Below, piece by piece: positions 31,807 through 44,719 of a stretch of DNA of 64,000 nucleotides (within the stretch, counting starts at the first letter, position 1; each line of letters opens with the position of its first letter). The translations under genes were made by a program, and so were the position numbers. Under the pieces are notes generated by a model. It did not search any database. It was given only the letters and a program-made list of their open reading frames with translations, and was not told the origin of the DNA. Source of the stretch: Actinomycetospora termitidis. Its GTDB lineage: Bacteria; Actinomycetota; Actinomycetes; Mycobacteriales; Pseudonocardiaceae. The stretch spans positions 186,001 to 250,000 of the forward strand of contig NZ_JASVWF010000001.1 of assembly GCF_030286555.1 (NCBI RefSeq), in the 5' to 3' direction.

Positions 31807-31844
31807 GCACTTCGAGGGCCTATAGGCCCTCGAAGTGCTCACCT
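31801..31844. terminator. Perfect 44-bp palindrome holding both stop codons
   Basis: Two 22-nt arms (left arm begins AGGTGAGCACTTCGAGGGCC) match without any mismatch or spacer. The TGA of the Gfo/Idh gene is in the left arm and the TAG of the convergent DUF429 gene overlaps the left arm near the centre. Such a cruciform/hairpin would end transcription from both sides. No T-tract. Confidence 0.85.
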
Positions 31845-32626
31845 GGCGGCAGCCACATCCGTCCCTCCAGCACCGATGTCGGGTCGGTCAGCGCCGGGAG
31901 GGACGCCAGCTCCGCGGCGTGCCCGGCCATGCCGAGGGCGGAGAACGCGGCGTCGAACGCGTCCTCGGAGGCGACGACGGCGGGGCGCAGCGCGACCGGT
32001 ATCCGCGGGTCGGCCCCGACGTGGGTCGCGCGGGCCGTCGCGGAGGACTTCACGACCGGACCCGTCATCGCGCGCGGGTAGACCTCGACGACGAGCACCC
32101 CCCGCGGTCCCGGCGCCGCGTCCAGCGGCCACACGCCGATCCCCTCCCGGCGCCATGCGCCCAGCAACGCCATCCCGCGCACCGACCCGGTGCCGACCGC
32201 GCCGGCCCCACCGACCTGGAACGTCGACAGCGGGTTCAGCCCGCGCTCGCGCGCGTCGAGCTCGGTGCGCCGGTACAACGGCAGGTCGGTCGGCTTCCGT
32301 GTGCCCGCCCGCCCCCAGAACGGTGGAGCGCACGCCCGCAGCCAGCCCTCGCCCTCGTCGCGGGCGAGGTCCCACAGCTGCGGCAGCGTGCTCACCCCGT
32401 GCCGGGCCGCGAACCAGGCGGGGAGCCCGAAGGAGAAGTCGATTCCGACGACGGCGGGTGCGGGTCCGTCGCGCAGGTCCCGCAGCAGCCCGCCGATCCC
32501 CTCGCGGTCGAGACCGCCCCGCACGGCCAGCAGCCGGCCGGGTTCCGCCTCGGCCACCCGGATGCGGCGCGCCGCGGCACGGAGGTCGCCGGACCAGTCG
32601 ACGGCGAGGACACGCACGGCAGGCAT
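31820..32626 (-). CDS. DUF429-type predicted RNase H-fold protein
   Basis: Protein of 268 residues resembling the DUF429 / predicted nuclease family with an RNase H-like fold. VRVLAVDWSGDL at the N-terminus gives the first acidic strand and VVGIDFSFGLPAWF the second; later acidic positions are in the C-terminal third (ASEDAFDAAFSALGMA). The family is uncharacterised biochemically; nuclease activity is a prediction from fold only. Start at ATG (MPAVRVLAV); upstream codons read through a palindromic repeat and are not coding. The last six codons lie inside the 44-bp palindrome. Confidence 0.75.
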   Translation of the reverse strand: MPAVRVLAVDWSGDLRAAARRIRVAEAEPGRLLAVRGGLDREGIGGLLRDLRDGPAPAVVGIDFSFGLPAWFAARHGVSTLPQLWDLARDEGEGWLRACAPPFWGRAGTRKPTDLPLYRRTELDARERGLNPLSTFQVGGAGAVGTGSVRGMALLGAWRREGIGVWPLDAAPGPRGVLVVEVYPRAMTGPVVKSSATARATHVGADPRIPVALRPAVVASEDAFDAAFSALGMAGHAAELASLPALTDPTSVLEGRMWLPPGEHFEGL

Positions 32627-32656
32627 CCTCCCGCGTGCCGTCCGCCGGGTCGGCTG

Positions 32657-32709
32657 TGAGCGAAGGGCGCCCACGGCCCGTCTCTCCGACCGAACGGGCC
32701 CTTCGCTCA
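32657..32709 (-). repeat. 53-bp palindromic element, copy 2 (inverted)
   Basis: Arms TGAGCGAAGGGC and GCCCTTCGCTCA, 29-nt loop, exactly as in copy 1. Read on the minus strand its loop matches that of copy 1 in most positions. It lies in the 312-nt spacer between the divergent DUF429 and chaplin-like genes, so here it is not a terminator between convergent genes. Nothing else but the inverted repeat at 32865 is seen in this spacer. Confidence 0.85.
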
Positions 32710-32864
32710 ACGAGGCTCGGGGCAGATCACCCGTTCGTCGCAGTAGAACGACCGCTGGGTCCTTCTACCGGACCGCTCGACCTCCAGCGAGCCGAGCCAC
32801 TCGTTCCGGGCGGATGTTCGCCGTCCCACTGGTCCCTCCCGTCACAGGAGCGCAGAGTCCGCCT

Positions 32865-32938: not shown

Positions 32939-33202
32939 GTGGCCAAGCACCGCGCTCCGCACCGGCTCACCCGGCGGGCCGCCACCCCCGTCGCCGCCCT
33001 CGCCCTGTCGGCGGCGGCGCTGACCGCCGTGGCCCCGGTGGCCTCGGCCCACCCGCGCGACGACGGGCCGTCGGGCAACGGCAACGTCGGGGTGCTCAAC
33101 GACCTGACGCTGCTGCCCGTGAACGCCTGCGGGCTGCAGGTCCCGATCCTCGGGAGCATCCTCGACGCGCCGGACGCGGACTGCTCGAACACCGACGACT
33201 GA
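32939..33202 (+). CDS. Small secreted chaplin-like protein
   Basis: Precursor of 87 residues. A basic N-terminus (MAKHRAPHRLTRRAATP) and hydrophobic core lead to a signal-peptidase site after ASA (Ala37). The mature 50 residues are small and hydrophobic with just two cysteines, in LPVNACGLQVPI and APDADC. That pattern, a Gly-Asn opening, PVNxCG and a second Cys about 20 residues on, resembles chaplins, surface peptides that form amyloid-like films on aerial hyphae and spores. The match is partial, so it may be another secreted disulfide peptide. GAGGAGG precedes the GTG start by 6 nt. Confidence 0.7.
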   Translation: MAKHRAPHRLTRRAATPVAALALSAAALTAVAPVASAHPRDDGPSGNGNVGVLNDLTLLPVNACGLQVPILGSILDAPDADCSNTDD

Positions 33203-33262: not shown

Positions 33263-35062
33263 TCAGCCGACCAGCAACCGGCCCGCCGGCGGCTCCTCGG
33301 CCCGCGCCGCCGGCACGCGCAGCCGGATCGTCGTCCCGATCCCCGCCCGGCTGTCGACGTGCAGGTCACCCCCGCCGCCGAACGCCCGCAGCCGGCGGGT
33401 GACCTCGGCGATCCCGCCGTGTCGCGCGTCGACCTGCGACGCCGCCCGGGAGGCCTCCGGCCCCATCCCCGCGCCGTCGTCGGAGACGGTGATGACGCAG
33501 TCCGCTCCGGCCCCGGCCGCGGTCACCCGCACCGTCCCGCCGTCGAGCACCGGCTCGATGCCGTGCCGCACCGCGTTCTCCACCAGCGGCGCCACCACGA
33601 ACGGCGGCAGCACGACGTTCTCGACCTCGGGGGCGACCGTGATCTCGACCCCGAGCCGCGTCCCGAAGCGGGCCTGCTCGAGCGTGAGGTAGCGGCGGGT
33701 GTTGCGCAGTTCCTCGGCCACCGTCGTCACGGCGTCCGAGGAGCGGAACGAGTAGCGCGTGAAGTCGGCGAACTCGGTGAGCAGGTCGCGCGCCCGGCCC
33801 GGATCGACCCGCACGAAGGCCGCGATGGCGGTCAGCGCGTTGTGCACGAAGTGGGCGGAGAACCGCGAGCGCAGCGCCGCCTCCACCTCGGCGTCGGGGA
33901 GCAGGACCTCGGCACCGGCCGGCACCAGGACACCCGGCGCCTGCGGCGTCGTCGTCCCGGTCGGCTCGGCGCGCATGCCGCGGGGGTGCCCGGATCCGGC
34001 GGGTCCGGGGGCGTCGACGGTCTCCAGGTCGTCGAGCGCGAGATCCGCCGCGACGACCGGCGCGGCGATCAGCGGGGCCTGGACGGTGGCGGGGTGCGTG
34101 CCCATCCGCAGGCCCTGCCAGCTCGGGCGGCCGAGCAGGCCGGTGGGGGTCCAGCGGCGGTGCTCCACCCGGCCGACGAGGCGCGGGGCCAGCCAGTGCG
34201 CCGCGTGGGCGACGTCGTCGGGCAGGTCGCCGTCGAAGGGGCTCACCAACCGCTCCAGCCCCACCGTGGCGTCGAGGATCTCCCGGCGCGCCGCCGCCGT
34301 CACACCGGTGGAGACGCGCCCGACGTAGCGGAGCACGCCCTCGCTCGGGACCCCGAGCAGCAGGGAGCCCACCCCGTCGGCGGCGCCGCGCGGCGGCAGC
34401 CAGCCCCCGACCACGACGTCCTGGGAGCGGGTGATCTCCGCGGTGATCCAGCTCCGCGAACGCCGCCCGCTCTGGTAGGTCGACTCCAGGCGCTTGGCGA
34501 CGACGCCCTCGAGGCCGTAGTGCCGGGCGGTGGCCACGATCTCGTCGGCGCCGACCCCGGTGAACGACGGCGGGACGACGAGGTTCCCACCCGCGAGGTC
34601 GATCTCGGTGAGCAGCTCGCGCCGCTGCCGGTAGGGCATGCGGGCCGTGGACCGGCCGTCGACCTCGAGGACGTCGAACACGAAGTAGTAGACCGGCGTC
34701 CCGCTCACCAGCGCACGCGACGGGTTGCTCACCCGCCGCCGGCGCCGCAGCCGCGTGGTGCTCGGCCGGCCCACCGGGTCCTGCGCGACGACCACGCCGT
34801 CGAGCACCAGGCCGTGCGCGGCCGGCACCCCGAGCTCGGGGAAGCCGGCCGTGACGTCGTGACCGTCGGCGTCGACCAGCCGCAACCCGCCGTCGTGGGC
34901 GTAGGCGAAGGCGCGCAGCCCGGACCACACGAACTCGAACGCCCAACCGGCGCCGCGCGGGAGCTCCCCGGCGGAGGCGAGCATCGGACGGGTGCCGCCG
35001 CGCGGCCCGGGCACGGTCGGCGGGGTGAGCGAGGCGTGGGCGGCCATCGACGAGGACGTCAT
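33263..35062 (-). CDS. Fusion of a degenerate ATP-dependent DNA ligase domain with a LytS-type histidine kinase
   Basis: A 599-residue protein in two parts. Residues 20-330 follow a LigD/LigC-type ligase: RPMLASAGELPRGAGWAFEF, the LVLDGVVVAQD motif, FVFDVLEVDG, EGVVAKRLESTYQSGRRSRS and an OB-domain start VVVGGWLPPRG...GSLLLGVPSEGVLRYVGRV. The active-site Lys of the usual EVKWDG is missing: FEFVWSG has Val45 for Lys and Ser47 for Asp, and motif V (SWITAEI) lacks its lysines, so it cannot ligate. Residues 390-590 are a His_kinase/HATPase of the LytS type: FSAHFVHNALTAI with His404, VENAVRHG (N box) and SDDGAGMG. No membrane helix is seen, so it is cytosolic. I infer a sensor kinase whose input domain may bind nicked DNA or a nucleotide. 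No partner response regulator is adjacent. GGAGG precedes the ATG by 8-9 nt. Confidence 0.85.
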   Translation of the reverse strand: MTSSSMAAHASLTPPTVPGPRGGTRPMLASAGELPRGAGWAFEFVWSGLRAFAYAHDGGLRLVDADGHDVTAGFPELGVPAAHGLVLDGVVVAQDPVGRPSTTRLRRRRRVSNPSRALVSGTPVYYFVFDVLEVDGRSTARMPYRQRRELLTEIDLAGGNLVVPPSFTGVGADEIVATARHYGLEGVVAKRLESTYQSGRRSRSWITAEITRSQDVVVGGWLPPRGAADGVGSLLLGVPSEGVLRYVGRVSTGVTAAARREILDATVGLERLVSPFDGDLPDDVAHAAHWLAPRLVGRVEHRRWTPTGLLGRPSWQGLRMGTHPATVQAPLIAAPVVAADLALDDLETVDAPGPAGSGHPRGMRAEPTGTTTPQAPGVLVPAGAEVLLPDAEVEAALRSRFSAHFVHNALTAIAAFVRVDPGRARDLLTEFADFTRYSFRSSDAVTTVAEELRNTRRYLTLEQARFGTRLGVEITVAPEVENVVLPPFVVAPLVENAVRHGIEPVLDGGTVRVTAAGAGADCVITVSDDGAGMGPEASRAASQVDARHGGIAEVTRRLRAFGGGGDLHVDSRAGIGTTIRLRVPAARAEEPPAGRLLVG

Positions 35063-35326: not shown

Positions 35327-36157
35327 TCAGACGAGCGGGCCGCTCGCGACGACCGCCGACGGGCGCGGCGGCACCGGTCCGGTCGGCTCGGCCGACACGG
35401 CGTAGGCGCCCCGCACGAGCCCGGAGCCGGGCGGGGCCGGGGACGCCGTCCCGGTCGGGGTGTAGGTGCCCGTCCCGTCGAAGGTCCCGACCGCGGTGGC
35501 CCCTCCCCCCGCGACCCGCCAGAGCACGAACGTCCGCCCGGGTCCGAGGTCGGGCAGGTCGACCGGCACGACCCGCGCCCCGCCCGCGTCGTCGAGCACC
35601 ACCGCCATGACGACCCCGCCGGGCTGGATGAGCGCGGCGTGCCGGACGTCGGGGTTCCGCTCCTGCGCCGAGGTGATGACCTGGTCGGCCCGCGCCGCGG
35701 CGACGCTGCGCTCGTCGGCGGCCGGCCCGGTGGCCATCCCGCGCGCGGAGAGCACGATCACACCGGCGACGACCGCGATCAGGGCCAGCAGGGCGGCGCT
35801 GCGCCGCCGGGGCAGCGGGACGGGGAACGGCCGGGTCCCGTGGTCGGGTGCGACGGGCGCGGGTGCCACCGGCTCCGGCTCGGGAGCCGCGGTCCGCTCG
35901 ACCGGCGGCGGCGCGGGGTCGGCCGCCGCCGCGTCGAGGATGCGCCGGCGCAGCGACGCGGGCGGGTCGACGTCCGCGACGGCGTGGGCCAGGGCCGCCA
36001 TCGTCGCGCGCGTCTCGGCGAGCAGGGCTCGGCACGGGCCGCACGTGCGCAGGTGCTCGGCGACCCGGGCCTCTTCATCGGGCTCGAGCGCGTGCAGCGC
36101 GCGCCCGACGACGGCGCCCGCGAGCTCGCCGTCGTGCGGGATCTCCTCGGCGCTCAC
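35327..36157 (-). CDS. Anti-sigma factor with zinc-binding ZAS motif (RskA-like)
   Basis: Membrane anti-sigma factor of 276 residues. The cytoplasmic N-terminus holds the ZAS zinc motif H35-x3-C39-x2-C42 (EHLRTCGPCRALL), which binds the sigma factor. A Pro/Ala-rich linker leads to one membrane helix at about 118-138 (RRRSAALLALIAVVAGVIVL). The external part, residues 140-276, is an RskA_C-type domain with the TFVLWRVAGG core. GTG start overlaps the sigma stop by GTGA, so both are made together. Release of the sigma factor probably follows regulated proteolysis after an envelope signal. Confidence 0.9.
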   Translation of the reverse strand: MSAEEIPHDGELAGAVVGRALHALEPDEEARVAEHLRTCGPCRALLAETRATMAALAHAVADVDPPASLRRRILDAAAADPAPPPVERTAAPEPEPVAPAPVAPDHGTRPFPVPLPRRRSAALLALIAVVAGVIVLSARGMATGPAADERSVAAARADQVITSAQERNPDVRHAALIQPGGVVMAVVLDDAGGARVVPVDLPDLGPGRTFVLWRVAGGGATAVGTFDGTGTYTPTGTASPAPPGSGLVRGAYAVSAEPTGPVPPRPSAVVASGPLV

Positions 36158-36840
36158 CACGTGTCCCCGAGCAGGTCGAGGGCCGAGGTCCCGAGGACCG
36201 GGGCGAGCAGCACGCGCAGCTTCGCCACGCCGGTGAACATGCGGGACTTGACGGTGCCGATCGGGACGCCGGTGATCGAGGCGACCTCGCGTTGGGTGTA
36301 GCCGCCGTAGTAGGCGAGCCCGAGCGCCTGGCGCTGCTCGGAGGGCAGGTGGCGCAGCGCGGCGCGCACGTGCTCGGCGATGACCGAGCCGAGGGCGGCG
36401 CGGTCCGCGGAGGGCACGGCCCCCTCGGGTCCCGACGTCACCTCGGGTTCCTCGGTGGCCACGTGGTGACGACGGCGGGTGGCCTCGCGCCGCACGGCGT
36501 CGACGGACTTGTGGTGGACCAGGGTCAGCAGCCAGCTGATCACCGTGCCGCGGGTGCGGTCGAAGCGCTCCGGGTCGCGCCAGAGCACCAGGAACACCTC
36601 CTGGACGACGTCCTCGGCGAGCGTCTCGTCGGCGCAGATGCGGCGCGCGAGCGAGTACGCGGCACGCCCGTGACGGCCGTAGAGGAGGTCGAGGGCGCCG
36701 GTGTCGCGCCCGGCGAGCCGGGCGACGAGCTCGGCGTCGGTCACGTCCGCACCGACCGGAGCGGGTCCGGCGGCGGCCCCCGACCGCGTCCCGAGGGCGT
36801 CCTCGGTCACGTCGGGCCCGGCCGTGCGGGGCGGTCTCAT
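36154..36840 (-). CDS. ECF-type RNA polymerase sigma factor (SigK-like group)
   Basis: Extracytoplasmic-function sigma factor of 228 residues. Region 2 is clear: LYGRHGRAAYSLARRICADE with LAEDVVQEVFLVLWRDPERF. Region 4 is ALRHLPSEQRQALGLAYYGG with YTQREVASITGVPIGTVKSR, the -35-recognising HTH. An N-terminal tail of about 35 residues is unusual in length but common in actinobacteria. AAGGAG lies 11 nt before the ATG. It is translationally coupled to the ZAS anti-sigma gene, as in the sigK-rskA pair of mycobacteria. The ligase-kinase gene follows downstream on the same strand. Confidence 0.93.
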   Translation of the reverse strand: MRPPRTAGPDVTEDALGTRSGAAAGPAPVGADVTDAELVARLAGRDTGALDLLYGRHGRAAYSLARRICADETLAEDVVQEVFLVLWRDPERFDRTRGTVISWLLTLVHHKSVDAVRREATRRRHHVATEEPEVTSGPEGAVPSADRAALGSVIAEHVRAALRHLPSEQRQALGLAYYGGYTQREVASITGVPIGTVKSRMFTGVAKLRVLLAPVLGTSALDLLGDTW

Positions 36841-37076
36841 GGCGGGTGGTGCTCCTTCGCTCCTGGGCGTCCGGCGGCACGGGATGCCCCGGACGTCGGA
36901 GCTTTCGTGACGGTGCCCCGGGCCGGTTCGCCCCGGAGCGACCACCGACCCGTCGTCGGGAACGATCCCGGCGACGGACCTGCCCTGACGGACGGGGGCG
37001 ATGCCGTTCGCGCGTGCGGCGCGAGCGTGAGCCGACCCACCTACCCTCGGGGGAAACGCGACTGCGGAAGGTGCTC

Positions 37077-42048: not shown

Positions 42049-42816
42049 TCACCAGAGGCCCGGGGGCTCCTCCTCGGGCTCCCGGCTGTGCCGGGCGCGC
42101 CGGACCTTTCCCGACGGCGGGTGCTCCGGCCCGCCGGGCGGGAGCGCCGAGAGCGCGGGCCCCGCGGGAGGCTGCTCCGGCAGGTCCACCGCCGTCGGCG
42201 CGGTGGGCAGCACGTCGGCGGCCGCGACGACCCGCAGCCAGTCGTGCGGGGAGTCCGCGTCGTAGCCGGTGTCCCGGCGGCGCGCCATCACGCCGGGCAG
42301 CCCCTGCTCGCGGACCCCCGCCAGCAGCGCCGGCCCGTCGTCGTACACCGGGGAGACCTGGATGCGCCCGACCTCGTCGAGGCTCAACCGCCCGAGGGTG
42401 GCCCGGCGCTCGTCGAGCGGGCGCTCGGTGAGCGGGACGCCGTAGAGCCGCAGCACGTCGTAGACCATGAAGATCGCCGGACGGGCGCGGGCGAGGGTGC
42501 GTGCCTTGCGCGGGTCGGCCCGGCGCAGCCGGTCGAACAGCGCCAGCGACGACGGCTGCCCGGCGTCGAGCAGCACCGCCTCGCCGTCGAAGAGCCCGTC
42601 GGCCACCACGTCGGCCAGCGGCGCGAACTCCGGGAACCGGGCCGTGACGTCGTCGCCCTCGAGCGTGCGCAGGCACAGCGATCCCTGCTCGACGTCGGCG
42701 AGCAGCCGGATCCCGCTCCAGTCGACCTCGTAGCTCCACTCCGGGCCCACGGGGAGGCGCCCCGGCACCGGCTGCATCGGCCGGATGCCGGCTCCGCGCA
42801 CGCCGACCTCCTGCAT
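42049..42816 (-). CDS. Degenerate ATP-dependent DNA ligase adenylation domain (near Ku)
   Basis: Protein of 255 residues. Residues 10-195 follow the adenylation domain of LigD/LigC: MQPVPGRLPVGPEWSYEVDW, VTARFPEF, LFDGEAVLLD, FMVYDVLRLYGVPLTERPLDER. Key residues are lost: YEVDWSGIR has Asp32 where the nucleophilic Lys should be and Ser34 for Asp; motif IV reads PGVMARR instead of EGVVAK. There is no OB domain; the tail of 55 residues is Pro/Glu-rich. It cannot be a working ligase. The change to WSG is shared with the ligase-kinase fusion at 33-35 kb. Ku lies 0.9 kb away on the other strand, so a DNA-end or nucleotide-binding role in repair is possible. Confidence 0.8.
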   Translation of the reverse strand: MQEVGVRGAGIRPMQPVPGRLPVGPEWSYEVDWSGIRLLADVEQGSLCLRTLEGDDVTARFPEFAPLADVVADGLFDGEAVLLDAGQPSSLALFDRLRRADPRKARTLARARPAIFMVYDVLRLYGVPLTERPLDERRATLGRLSLDEVGRIQVSPVYDDGPALLAGVREQGLPGVMARRRDTGYDADSPHDWLRVVAAADVLPTAPTAVDLPEQPPAGPALSALPPGGPEHPPSGKVRRARHSREPEEEPPGLW

Positions 42817-42879
42817 GCCGACATGGTGCCCCGTGGGTCCGACACCCTCGCCGCCGACACCCCGGGCGAGGATGGGAAC

Positions 42880-43629
42880 GTGCGTGACGAGCGGGAGATC
42901 GGCGGGGCGTGGCGCCGCCACCAGCGCCACCAGCGCCGCGAGCCGCCCGCCGACCTCGCGACGTGGGCCGACCACCTCTGGTCCGCCACGTGGGACTACG
43001 CGAGCCCGTACGCCCAGAAGATCGCGCCGTCCGCCGTCGTGCACCTGACGGCCCGCGACGGCGCGCCGCCGGAGTGGCACGGCCCGACCACCCGCCACGT
43101 CGTCCGCGAGCTCACCGGACGGGGCGGCGTCGTCGGGATCGCCCTGCGGCCGGGCCTGGCGCGGGACCTCGTCGGGCGCCCGGTGTCGACGCTCGCCGAC
43201 ACCGCGGTCGCGGCGGACGGGCCGGCCGGGATGCACGACCTCGACGCGCTCGCGGCGTGGCTGCGGGCCCGGGTGCCGGTCGCTCCGTCCCCCGACGCGC
43301 TCGTGGCCGCCGAGGCGGTCGAGCTGGCCCGGGACGACCCTAATCTGCGGCGCGTCGAGGACCTCGCCGCGCGGTGCGGCCGGCACCCGCGGCGCCTGCA
43401 ACGGCTCTTCGCCGAACACGTGGGCGTCGGACCGAAGGCCGTCCTGCGGTGGTACCGACTGGGCGAGGTGACCCGGCGGATGGCATCCGGTCGGCCCATC
43501 GCGTGGGCCGCGCTCGCCCACGACCTCGGCTACGCCGACCAGGCGCACCTCGTCCGCGACGTCACCGCCCTGCTCGGGGAGTCGCCGACCGCCTACGCCG
43601 CGCGGTATCCCCGCGCGGAAATCCTGTGA
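42880..43629 (+). CDS. AraC-family transcriptional regulator
   Basis: Regulator of 249 residues with an AraC-type double HTH at the C-terminus (LRRVEDLAARCGRHPRRLQR followed by LFAEHVGVGPKAVLRWYRLG and DLGYADQAHLVRDVTALLGE). The N-terminal 140 residues resemble the DUF6597 cupin-like sensor (LWSATWDYASPYAQKIAPSA). GTG start with GATGGGAAC upstream; a GTG 18 codons earlier is possible. It lies between the pseudo-ligase gene (divergent) and Ku (same strand, 73 nt), so it may control either, though nothing proves it. Confidence 0.88.
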   Translation: MRDEREIGGAWRRHQRHQRREPPADLATWADHLWSATWDYASPYAQKIAPSAVVHLTARDGAPPEWHGPTTRHVVRELTGRGGVVGIALRPGLARDLVGRPVSTLADTAVAADGPAGMHDLDALAAWLRARVPVAPSPDALVAAEAVELARDDPNLRRVEDLAARCGRHPRRLQRLFAEHVGVGPKAVLRWYRLGEVTRRMASGRPIAWAALAHDLGYADQAHLVRDVTALLGESPTAYAARYPRAEIL

Positions 43630-43702: not shown

Positions 43703-44719
43703 ATGCGCGCGATCTGGAACGGCGCCGTGTCGTTCGGGCTGGTCAACGTGCCCGTGCGGCTCTACGCGGCGACGTCGAACCACGACATCCGCTTCCACCA
43801 GGTGCACGAGATCGACGGCGGACGCATCCGCCAGAAGCGCACCTGCTCGGTCTGCGGGGAGGAGGTGGCCTACTCCGAGATCGCGAAGGGTTACGAGACC
43901 GACGACGGGCAGCTGATCATGCTCGACGACGACGACCTCGCCTCGCTCCCCACCGCCACCGGCCACGAGATCGACGTCGTGCAGTTCGTCCCGGCCGACG
44001 ACGTCGACCCGCTGCTGCTGGACAAGAGCTACTACCTCGAGCCCGAGAACAAGGCCCTCAAGCCGTACTCGCTGCTGCGCGAGGCCCTGCGGGAGACCGA
44101 CCGGATGGCGCTGGTGAAGGTCGCGCTGCGCCAGCGCGAGACCCTCGCCCTGCTGCGGGTCCGGGACAACGCGATCGTGCTGCAGACGATGCTCTGGCCC
44201 GACGAGGTGCGCGAGGCCGACTTCCCGGTGCTCGACAACGACGTCGAGGTCCGCCCGCAGGAGATGGCGATGGCCTCCTCGCTGATCGACTCGCTCTCCG
44301 GCGAGTTCGAGATCGGCGACTTCGAGGACGAGTACCGCAAGGCCGTCGGCGACCTCATCGAGTACAAGCGCGAGCACGGCGGCGGCCGGCCGGCACCGGA
44401 GGAGGCGCCCGCCGAGGACGCCGACGACATGACCGACCTGCTCACCGCCCTGCGCCGCTCCGTCGAGGCGGCCGGCGGGAAGTCGGCGGAGACGGCTCCC
44501 TCCGAGGAGAAGGCCGAGAAAGCCGAGAAGGCCGAGGAGAAGCCGGCCGCGACGGAGGATGACCCTGCCGAGGAGAAGCCGAAGAAGTCCACGTCGCGCA
44601 AGCGGTCGTCGACCGCGAAGGCCGACGGCGACTCGTCGTCGGGAACGAAGAAGGCCACCACGACCCGCTCGCGGCGCAAGAAGGCCGACGACGACAAGGC
44701 CGAGGAGAAGGCCAGCTAG
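43703..44719 (+). CDS. ku: Ku, non-homologous end-joining DNA end-binding protein
   Basis: Homodimeric Ku ring protein that threads onto double-strand ends and recruits LigD. It has 338 residues. The core (1-250) is canonical: MRAIWNGAVSFGLVNVPVRL, FHQVHEIDGGRIRQKRTC, YYLEPENKALKPYSLLREAL and RDNAIVLQTMLWPDEVREAD. The C-terminal 85 residues are a Lys/Glu/Ala/Ser-rich tail (KAEKAEKAEEKP, KKSTSRKRSSTAK), the extended form of actinobacterial Ku that binds DNA without ends. No catalytic LigD is in the window. A strong hairpin follows. Confidence 0.97.
   Translation: MRAIWNGAVSFGLVNVPVRLYAATSNHDIRFHQVHEIDGGRIRQKRTCSVCGEEVAYSEIAKGYETDDGQLIMLDDDDLASLPTATGHEIDVVQFVPADDVDPLLLDKSYYLEPENKALKPYSLLREALRETDRMALVKVALRQRETLALLRVRDNAIVLQTMLWPDEVREADFPVLDNDVEVRPQEMAMASSLIDSLSGEFEIGDFEDEYRKAVGDLIEYKREHGGGRPAPEEAPAEDADDMTDLLTALRRSVEAAGGKSAETAPSEEKAEKAEKAEEKPAATEDDPAEEKPKKSTSRKRSSTAKADGDSSSGTKKATTTRSRRKKADDDKAEEKAS

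Follow-up and report, generated by a model that had tools for sequence, protein, structure and literature searches.

LytS-type histidine kinases that work with LytTR regulators (BtsS/BtsR, YpdA/YpdB and LytS/LytR) carry a transmitter made of a PF06580 dimerisation and phospho-acceptor (DHp) domain and HATPase_c, and in BtsS and the staphylococcal LytS the input is membrane-bound (PMC5552118, PMC10653868, PMC4830213). We have found in Actinomycetospora termitidis a protein that shares both transmitter domains but has a dead DNA ligase as its input; also unlike the LytS-type systems, its ATP lid is altered and no regulator gene is adjacent. The ligase part has the same two-domain fold as the ligase domain of Mycobacterium tuberculosis LigD (1vs0, 6nhz) and the stand-alone LigC/LigD enzymes, with 36–38% identity over about 300 residues, and like them it occurs in the genomic company of Ku. 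However, the nucleophile Lys, the LDGE Glu and the catalytic residues of motifs V and VI are missing and, where LigD has polymerase or phosphoesterase domains, the fusion has none and carries the transmitter. Spo0B is a degenerate histidine kinase in which the transmitter was kept as ATP binding decayed, a situation comparable to that of the Pseudonocardia fusions described below. The same likeness is found in DivL, another degenerate histidine kinase (PMC9430884). Unlike these two proteins, the fusion is joined to a DNA-repair enzyme and its phospho-acceptor His is invariant. The preliminary description of this DNA knew of no described example of the architecture, and neither did we find in the open-licence literature any description of a ligase-kinase fusion or of NHEJ together with a sensor kinase, although this is weak evidence of absence.

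The window, i.e., the whole stretch of 64,000 nucleotides that was analyzed, contains the features listed in Table 1. The minus-strand frame running from 35062 to 33263 codes for one unbroken protein. The plus-strand frame over the same positions is likewise open, a shadow of the high GC content, so the length of the ORF alone is no proof of a gene. The Pfam matches appear in the order DNA_ligase_A_M, DNA_ligase_A_C, His_kinase and HATPase_c, each of them exceeding its curated cut-off, and no input domain other than the pseudo-ligase was detected by the Pfam search. The preliminary description had placed here a single frame of 599 codons with ligase adenylation and OB motifs followed by His_kinase/HATPase; its coordinates were right, the domains were confirmed by Pfam, and the strand, which it had left unstated, is the minus one. 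No stop or frameshift separates the two halves, the same frame is conserved in the relatives, and the structure predicted for the first domain matches 1vs0. Chance, sequencing error and an assembly, contig or frameshift artefact could be ruled out, since we found 43 distinct fusions with the same domain order and conserved frames in four genera of the Pseudonocardiaceae. A pseudo-ligase joined to a LytS-type transmitter is thus a conserved architecture.

Table 1. Features of the fusion gene and its surroundings, in coordinates of the window.
Feature	Position	Strand	Evidence and remarks
Pseudo-ligase/LytS-type histidine kinase fusion	33263..35062	-	599 aa; open frame, Pfam and NCBIfam, 43 distinct same-order fusions
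Pseudo nucleotidyltransferase (adenylation) domain	34445..34954	-	Residues 37-206; PF01068 5.8e-18; motif I Lys is Val45; alignment with LigD 1vs0; model matches ligases
OB-fold ligase C-terminal domain	34106..34381	-	Residues 228-319; PF04679 5.1e-17
LytS-type DHp (dimerisation/phospho-acceptor) domain	33653..33877	-	Residues 396-470, His404; PF06580 5.4e-16; His404 and Asn408 in 43/43
HATPase_c catalytic (CA) domain	33305..33598	-	Residues 489-586; PF02518 1.4e-10; N, G1 and G3 boxes kept, G2/lid altered
zf-HC2-type anti-sigma-like protein	35327..36157	-	Pfam; upstream neighbour, adjoins the fusion in Actinomycetospora only
ECF sigma factor	36154..36945	-	Pfam Sigma70_r2/r4; upstream neighbour, adjoins the fusion in Actinomycetospora only
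Second, separately derived pseudo-ligase	42049..42816	-	Adenylation domain only; PF01068 50 bits; motif I Lys replaced by Asp; start codon uncertain
Ku, DNA-end-binding protein of NHEJ	43703..44719	+	PF02735 1.2e-50; sole Ku match of the genome

The fusions compared belong to Actinomycetospora (17), to two genera known from MAGs and found by a search across the Pseudonocardiaceae, g3 (10) and g38 (2, Dino_bin20), and to Pseudonocardia (14). The gene was present in 16 of the 17 other Actinomycetospora genomes searched (66–86% identity, one of the 16 being a contig-end fragment), i.e., in 17/18 with that of the window, and the one genome without it is only 83% complete. No fusion was found outside the Pseudonocardiaceae among the strongest matches in 395 genomes of the class, a search in which weaker fusions would be missed; leaving aside the genome of the window, the matches with E <= 1e-66 spanned the ligase half only. 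The ligase halves of the fusions form one clade (support 100/96), and the 43 transmitters fall on one side of a branch that separates them from 76 actinobacterial LytS paralogues (SH-aLRT 95). Judged by either half, then, the fusion is one clade with a single origin. In the same g38 genome as locus L019 there is a second match to ligase plus PF06580 (G054:C543:19420-20541), possibly another copy of the fusion.

We have examined the neighbourhood of the fusion in these genera. In g3, Ku lies directly upstream of it on the same strand in 10/10 genomes, with gaps of tens of bases, and the two genes converge tail to tail, 12 bp apart, in the g38 genome G127. In Actinomycetospora, Ku was 7.9–13.7 kb away in all 15 genomes with both genes on one contig, an inherited arrangement that has to be counted once. 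The Pseudonocardia loci that we examined had no Ku near the fusion, and neither had the other of the two g38 genomes. We saw no further neighbours common to the Actinomycetospora, g3 and g38 loci, which leaves Ku as the one common companion. The fusion is therefore genomically associated with Ku in Actinomycetospora, g3 and one g38 genome, and given the role of Ku in NHEJ this linkage makes the idea of break sensing stronger than sequence alone could make it. The sigma/anti-sigma pair was considered as a core part of the system through co-transcription and dropped, as Actinomycetospora is the only genus in which it lies beside the fusion, with its end 264 bp upstream of it. Two further genes are conserved neighbours in this genus, one at 31820-32710 (minus strand), DUF429-like by eye and with no Pfam match, and one at 32939-33202 (plus strand) coding for a small, secreted-looking protein. 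Near the fusion gene no match to a LexA box or to a PafBC (RecA-NDp) promoter was found.

A second pseudo-ligase, acidic (pI about 5), was found beside Ku in 14/14 Actinomycetospora loci examined. In the tree it makes up a separate clade whose sister is an active Ku-adjacent ligase of Pseudonocardia, and its origin is distinct from that of the fusion. In the window an extra gene, AraC-like by eye only, is located between it and Ku (42823-43629, plus strand). That two ligases have died separately around Ku in a single genus points to some use for dead ligases at this place.

As to the transmitter, its closest solved relative is the histidine kinase GanS (6swj), which the model matches with a Z of 19.2. 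The kinase half is 55% identical to the LytS paralogue of the window's genome, and the fusion DHp averages 64% identity to the intact LytS paralogue. The transmitter derives from the common actinobacterial LytS kinase. However, helix 1 of the fusion DHp is only 49–67% identical to the Actinomycetospora paralogue, whereas the paralogues of other genera average 88%, so the partner specificity may have shifted. The phospho-acceptor His404 and Asn408 (HxxxN) are invariant (43/43). The complete His_kinase/HATPase of the preliminary description stood in part. His404, the N box (LVENAVRHG), G1 (DDGAGM) and G3 (GIGTT) are present in the window protein, and N, G1 and G3 are intact in all 17 Actinomycetospora fusions, whose ATP site is nearly complete, but G2, the ATP lid, reads RHGGIAEV versus AHVGLGNV in the parent-type kinase. 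This lid is altered or deleted in every fusion lineage, the deletions being those of g3 and g38. Pseudonocardia has gone further: in L020, L101, L107, L148 and others the ATP domain is truncated or decayed, the N-box Asn, the lid and the C-terminal strands are gone, Pfam gives His_kinase with no HATPase_c, and the predicted model shows confident DHp helices with a truncated ATP domain. Still, the phospho-acceptor His and HxxxN were kept in 14/14. By their residues the Pseudonocardia fusions are a pseudo-ligase joined to a pseudo-kinase. Since Pseudonocardia has no N box and little of its ATP site left, and the lid is altered or missing in all lineages, kinase activity may be absent. The signalling through phosphorylation that had been proposed thus cannot as a general rule take place by autophosphorylation, even though the His is invariant.

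The likeliest alternative to a sensor starts from these same data. The protein could be a structural accessory of NHEJ: its pseudo-ligase would bind Ku or DNA ends and its DHp would merely dimerise, bridging ends or excluding active ligases, with the kinase as a leftover. The linkage to Ku agrees with this, as does the fact that several lineages have let the ATP-binding domain decay but preserve DHp and the ligase fold, and the separately derived second dead ligase of Actinomycetospora indicates that such proteins are tolerated or used around Ku. Nevertheless, a mere dimeriser need not keep the His and the Asn of HxxxN, invariant even over the broken ATP sites of Pseudonocardia, and in Actinomycetospora the CA domain, with its three boxes intact, is under purifying selection. 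On balance we consider a purely structural role rather unlikely.

The ligase half has as its closest solved relative by sequence the M. tuberculosis LigD ligase domain (E about 1e-51), the catalytic Lys of which is Lys481 (PMC8656161). In the alignment with 1vs0, Val45 occupies the position of this Lys ('EGKWDG' vs 'EFVWSG'), LDGE has become LDGV, the 'WVKDK' of motif V is 'WITAE', and in motif VI GLRPDK is replaced by GLRMGT, with loss of Asp and Lys. None of the 42 fusions that cover the position has the motif I nucleophile Lys (KxDG), and V, L, A, S, T, G or R stands in its place, while the other ligases compared retain this Lys, with the exception of the separate Ku-side pseudo-ligase clade. 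The LDGE Glu is lost (V or K) in every sequence covering it in an alignment of 20 rows, and the motif V Lys is missing in all aligned fusions but one, a Pseudonocardia sequence. Conversely, motif III/IV and the nucleotidyltransferase fold are largely kept. The model has 1vs0 as its best structural match (Z 24 over 297 residues), with an rmsd of 13.6 A because the two ligase domains are turned differently, and 313 residues of the ligase half can be superposed at 4.9 A on human ligase 1 in its DNA-bound form. Alignment and model therefore bear out what had been read from the sequence, namely Val45 in place of the active-site Lys, loss of the motif V lysines and conserved folding motifs. This half is also basic, with a net charge of about +8 and a pI of about 10, versus +0.7 and 7.7 in active ligases. 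Judging by the residues lost, the fusion is not a DNA ligase, and sealing could be carried out by the intact-motif ligases found elsewhere in the window's genome, two LigC-like and one LigB-like by motif and size.

The same residues bear on two other explanations. The adenylation pocket might persist as a site for ATP, NAD or an alarmone that controls the kinase, and the nucleotidyltransferase fold with its motif III/IV would fit such a small-molecule sensor. But what has been lost are the nucleotide contacts (motif I Lys, LDGE Glu, motif V Lys, motif VI Asp/Lys), while the retained OB domain and the more basic module fit DNA better. Nucleotide sensing thus appears less likely than DNA sensing, because the missing residues are the nucleotide-contacting ones, and we hold it to be improbable. 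Ligases with a mutated motif I Lys still act in some cases on pre-adenylated nicks, and the protein might in this way, unable to adenylate itself, seal or de-adenylate the 5'-adenylated nicks left by abortive ligation; with the LDGE Glu and the motif V and VI residues also lost, and the fused transmitter left without explanation, a residual enzyme of this kind seems very improbable.

The median dN/dS values in Actinomycetospora were 0.34 for the adenylation domain, 0.33 for OB, 0.27 for DHp and 0.32 for CA, with 0.64 for the linker; they come from simple Nei-Gojobori counts on very GC-rich genes, so that the absolute values are rough and the useful part is the contrast between regions. The g3 values were lower still. 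In Pseudonocardia the ratios are relaxed in the ligase half (0.67) and CA (0.86), DHp being the best-conserved region (0.40). Outside Pseudonocardia the dead ligase domain is under purifying selection, and in Actinomycetospora both halves are. A gene decaying without function would account for the relaxed ratios and the lost ATP domain of Pseudonocardia, but is the least credible explanation of all given the open frame under purifying selection in Actinomycetospora and g3, and its presence in nearly every Actinomycetospora genome.

We have also looked for possible partners. In the window's genome there are exactly two PF06580 kinases and a single LytTR regulator, and identical counts were obtained for three g3 genomes and four further Actinomycetospora genomes that were tested. 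LytTR regulators and an intact-type LytS paralogue were present in each of the 19 tested genomes that carry the fusion, although this paralogue is widespread in actinobacteria and its presence alone is no evidence of partnership. In the window's genome it is located at about 420.5–421.7 kb of G000:C1; its N-terminal part has no Pfam match and is 'GAF-like' only by the look of the sequence. An orphan LytTR regulator had been suggested as something to look for. However, the genome's only one, in the region of G000:C1:416113, lies near the parental-type LytS paralogue, about 3.5 kb away with two genes between (L111:6577-12225), and none is found beside the fusion. One of the two intervening genes has the look of an SppA-type protease. 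The putative link between LytTR and the fusion is based on the gene counts and the similarity of the DHp domains.

Our preferred reading is that a pseudo-ligase that reads DNA breaks or nicks feeds a LytS/LytTR circuit, via its own kinase activity or via its His-bearing dimerisation domain; we put this forward tentatively, as a proposition with slightly less than an even chance. Having lost its adenylation chemistry, an NHEJ-type DNA ligase would have been retained as a clamp that reads DNA, and it would have been joined to a transmitter copied from the common LytS kinase. The pseudo-ligase would close on DNA ends that are nicked or held by Ku but leave them unsealed, and the closing would change the geometry of the DHp dimer and alter the flow of phosphoryl groups to a response regulator, for which the genome's single LytTR regulator is the simplest candidate. 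The Actinomycetospora fusion could itself be a working kinase. In the lineages with decayed ATP sites the DHp might serve as phospho-acceptor or as phosphatase, or pair with the intact LytS paralogue in a mixed dimer. The LytS/LytTR circuit would in this way gain an input that responds to DNA breaks. The more specific version, a break sensor that recognises nicked or Ku-bound DNA through its repurposed NHEJ ligase and relays this by histidine phosphorylation, is more doubtful, and we regard it as possible but not probable; the second dead ligase beside Ku is a possible further part of the same break-signalling circuit.

According to the current view, DNA damage is perceived in bacteria mainly by indirect routes, via single-stranded DNA (RecA/LexA) or PafBC. 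Functionally, the fusion would be a two-component sensor, but one whose input is of a new kind. The series that goes from intact to decayed ATP sites with the His always kept is a natural experiment on what a DHp does without a kinase of its own, and the model is open to test in culturable soil actinomycetes. If it is true, a histidine kinase with a repair ligase as input would link breaks directly to transcription, in a two-component system stimulated by the DNA break itself, and a repair enzyme would have been turned into a receptor.
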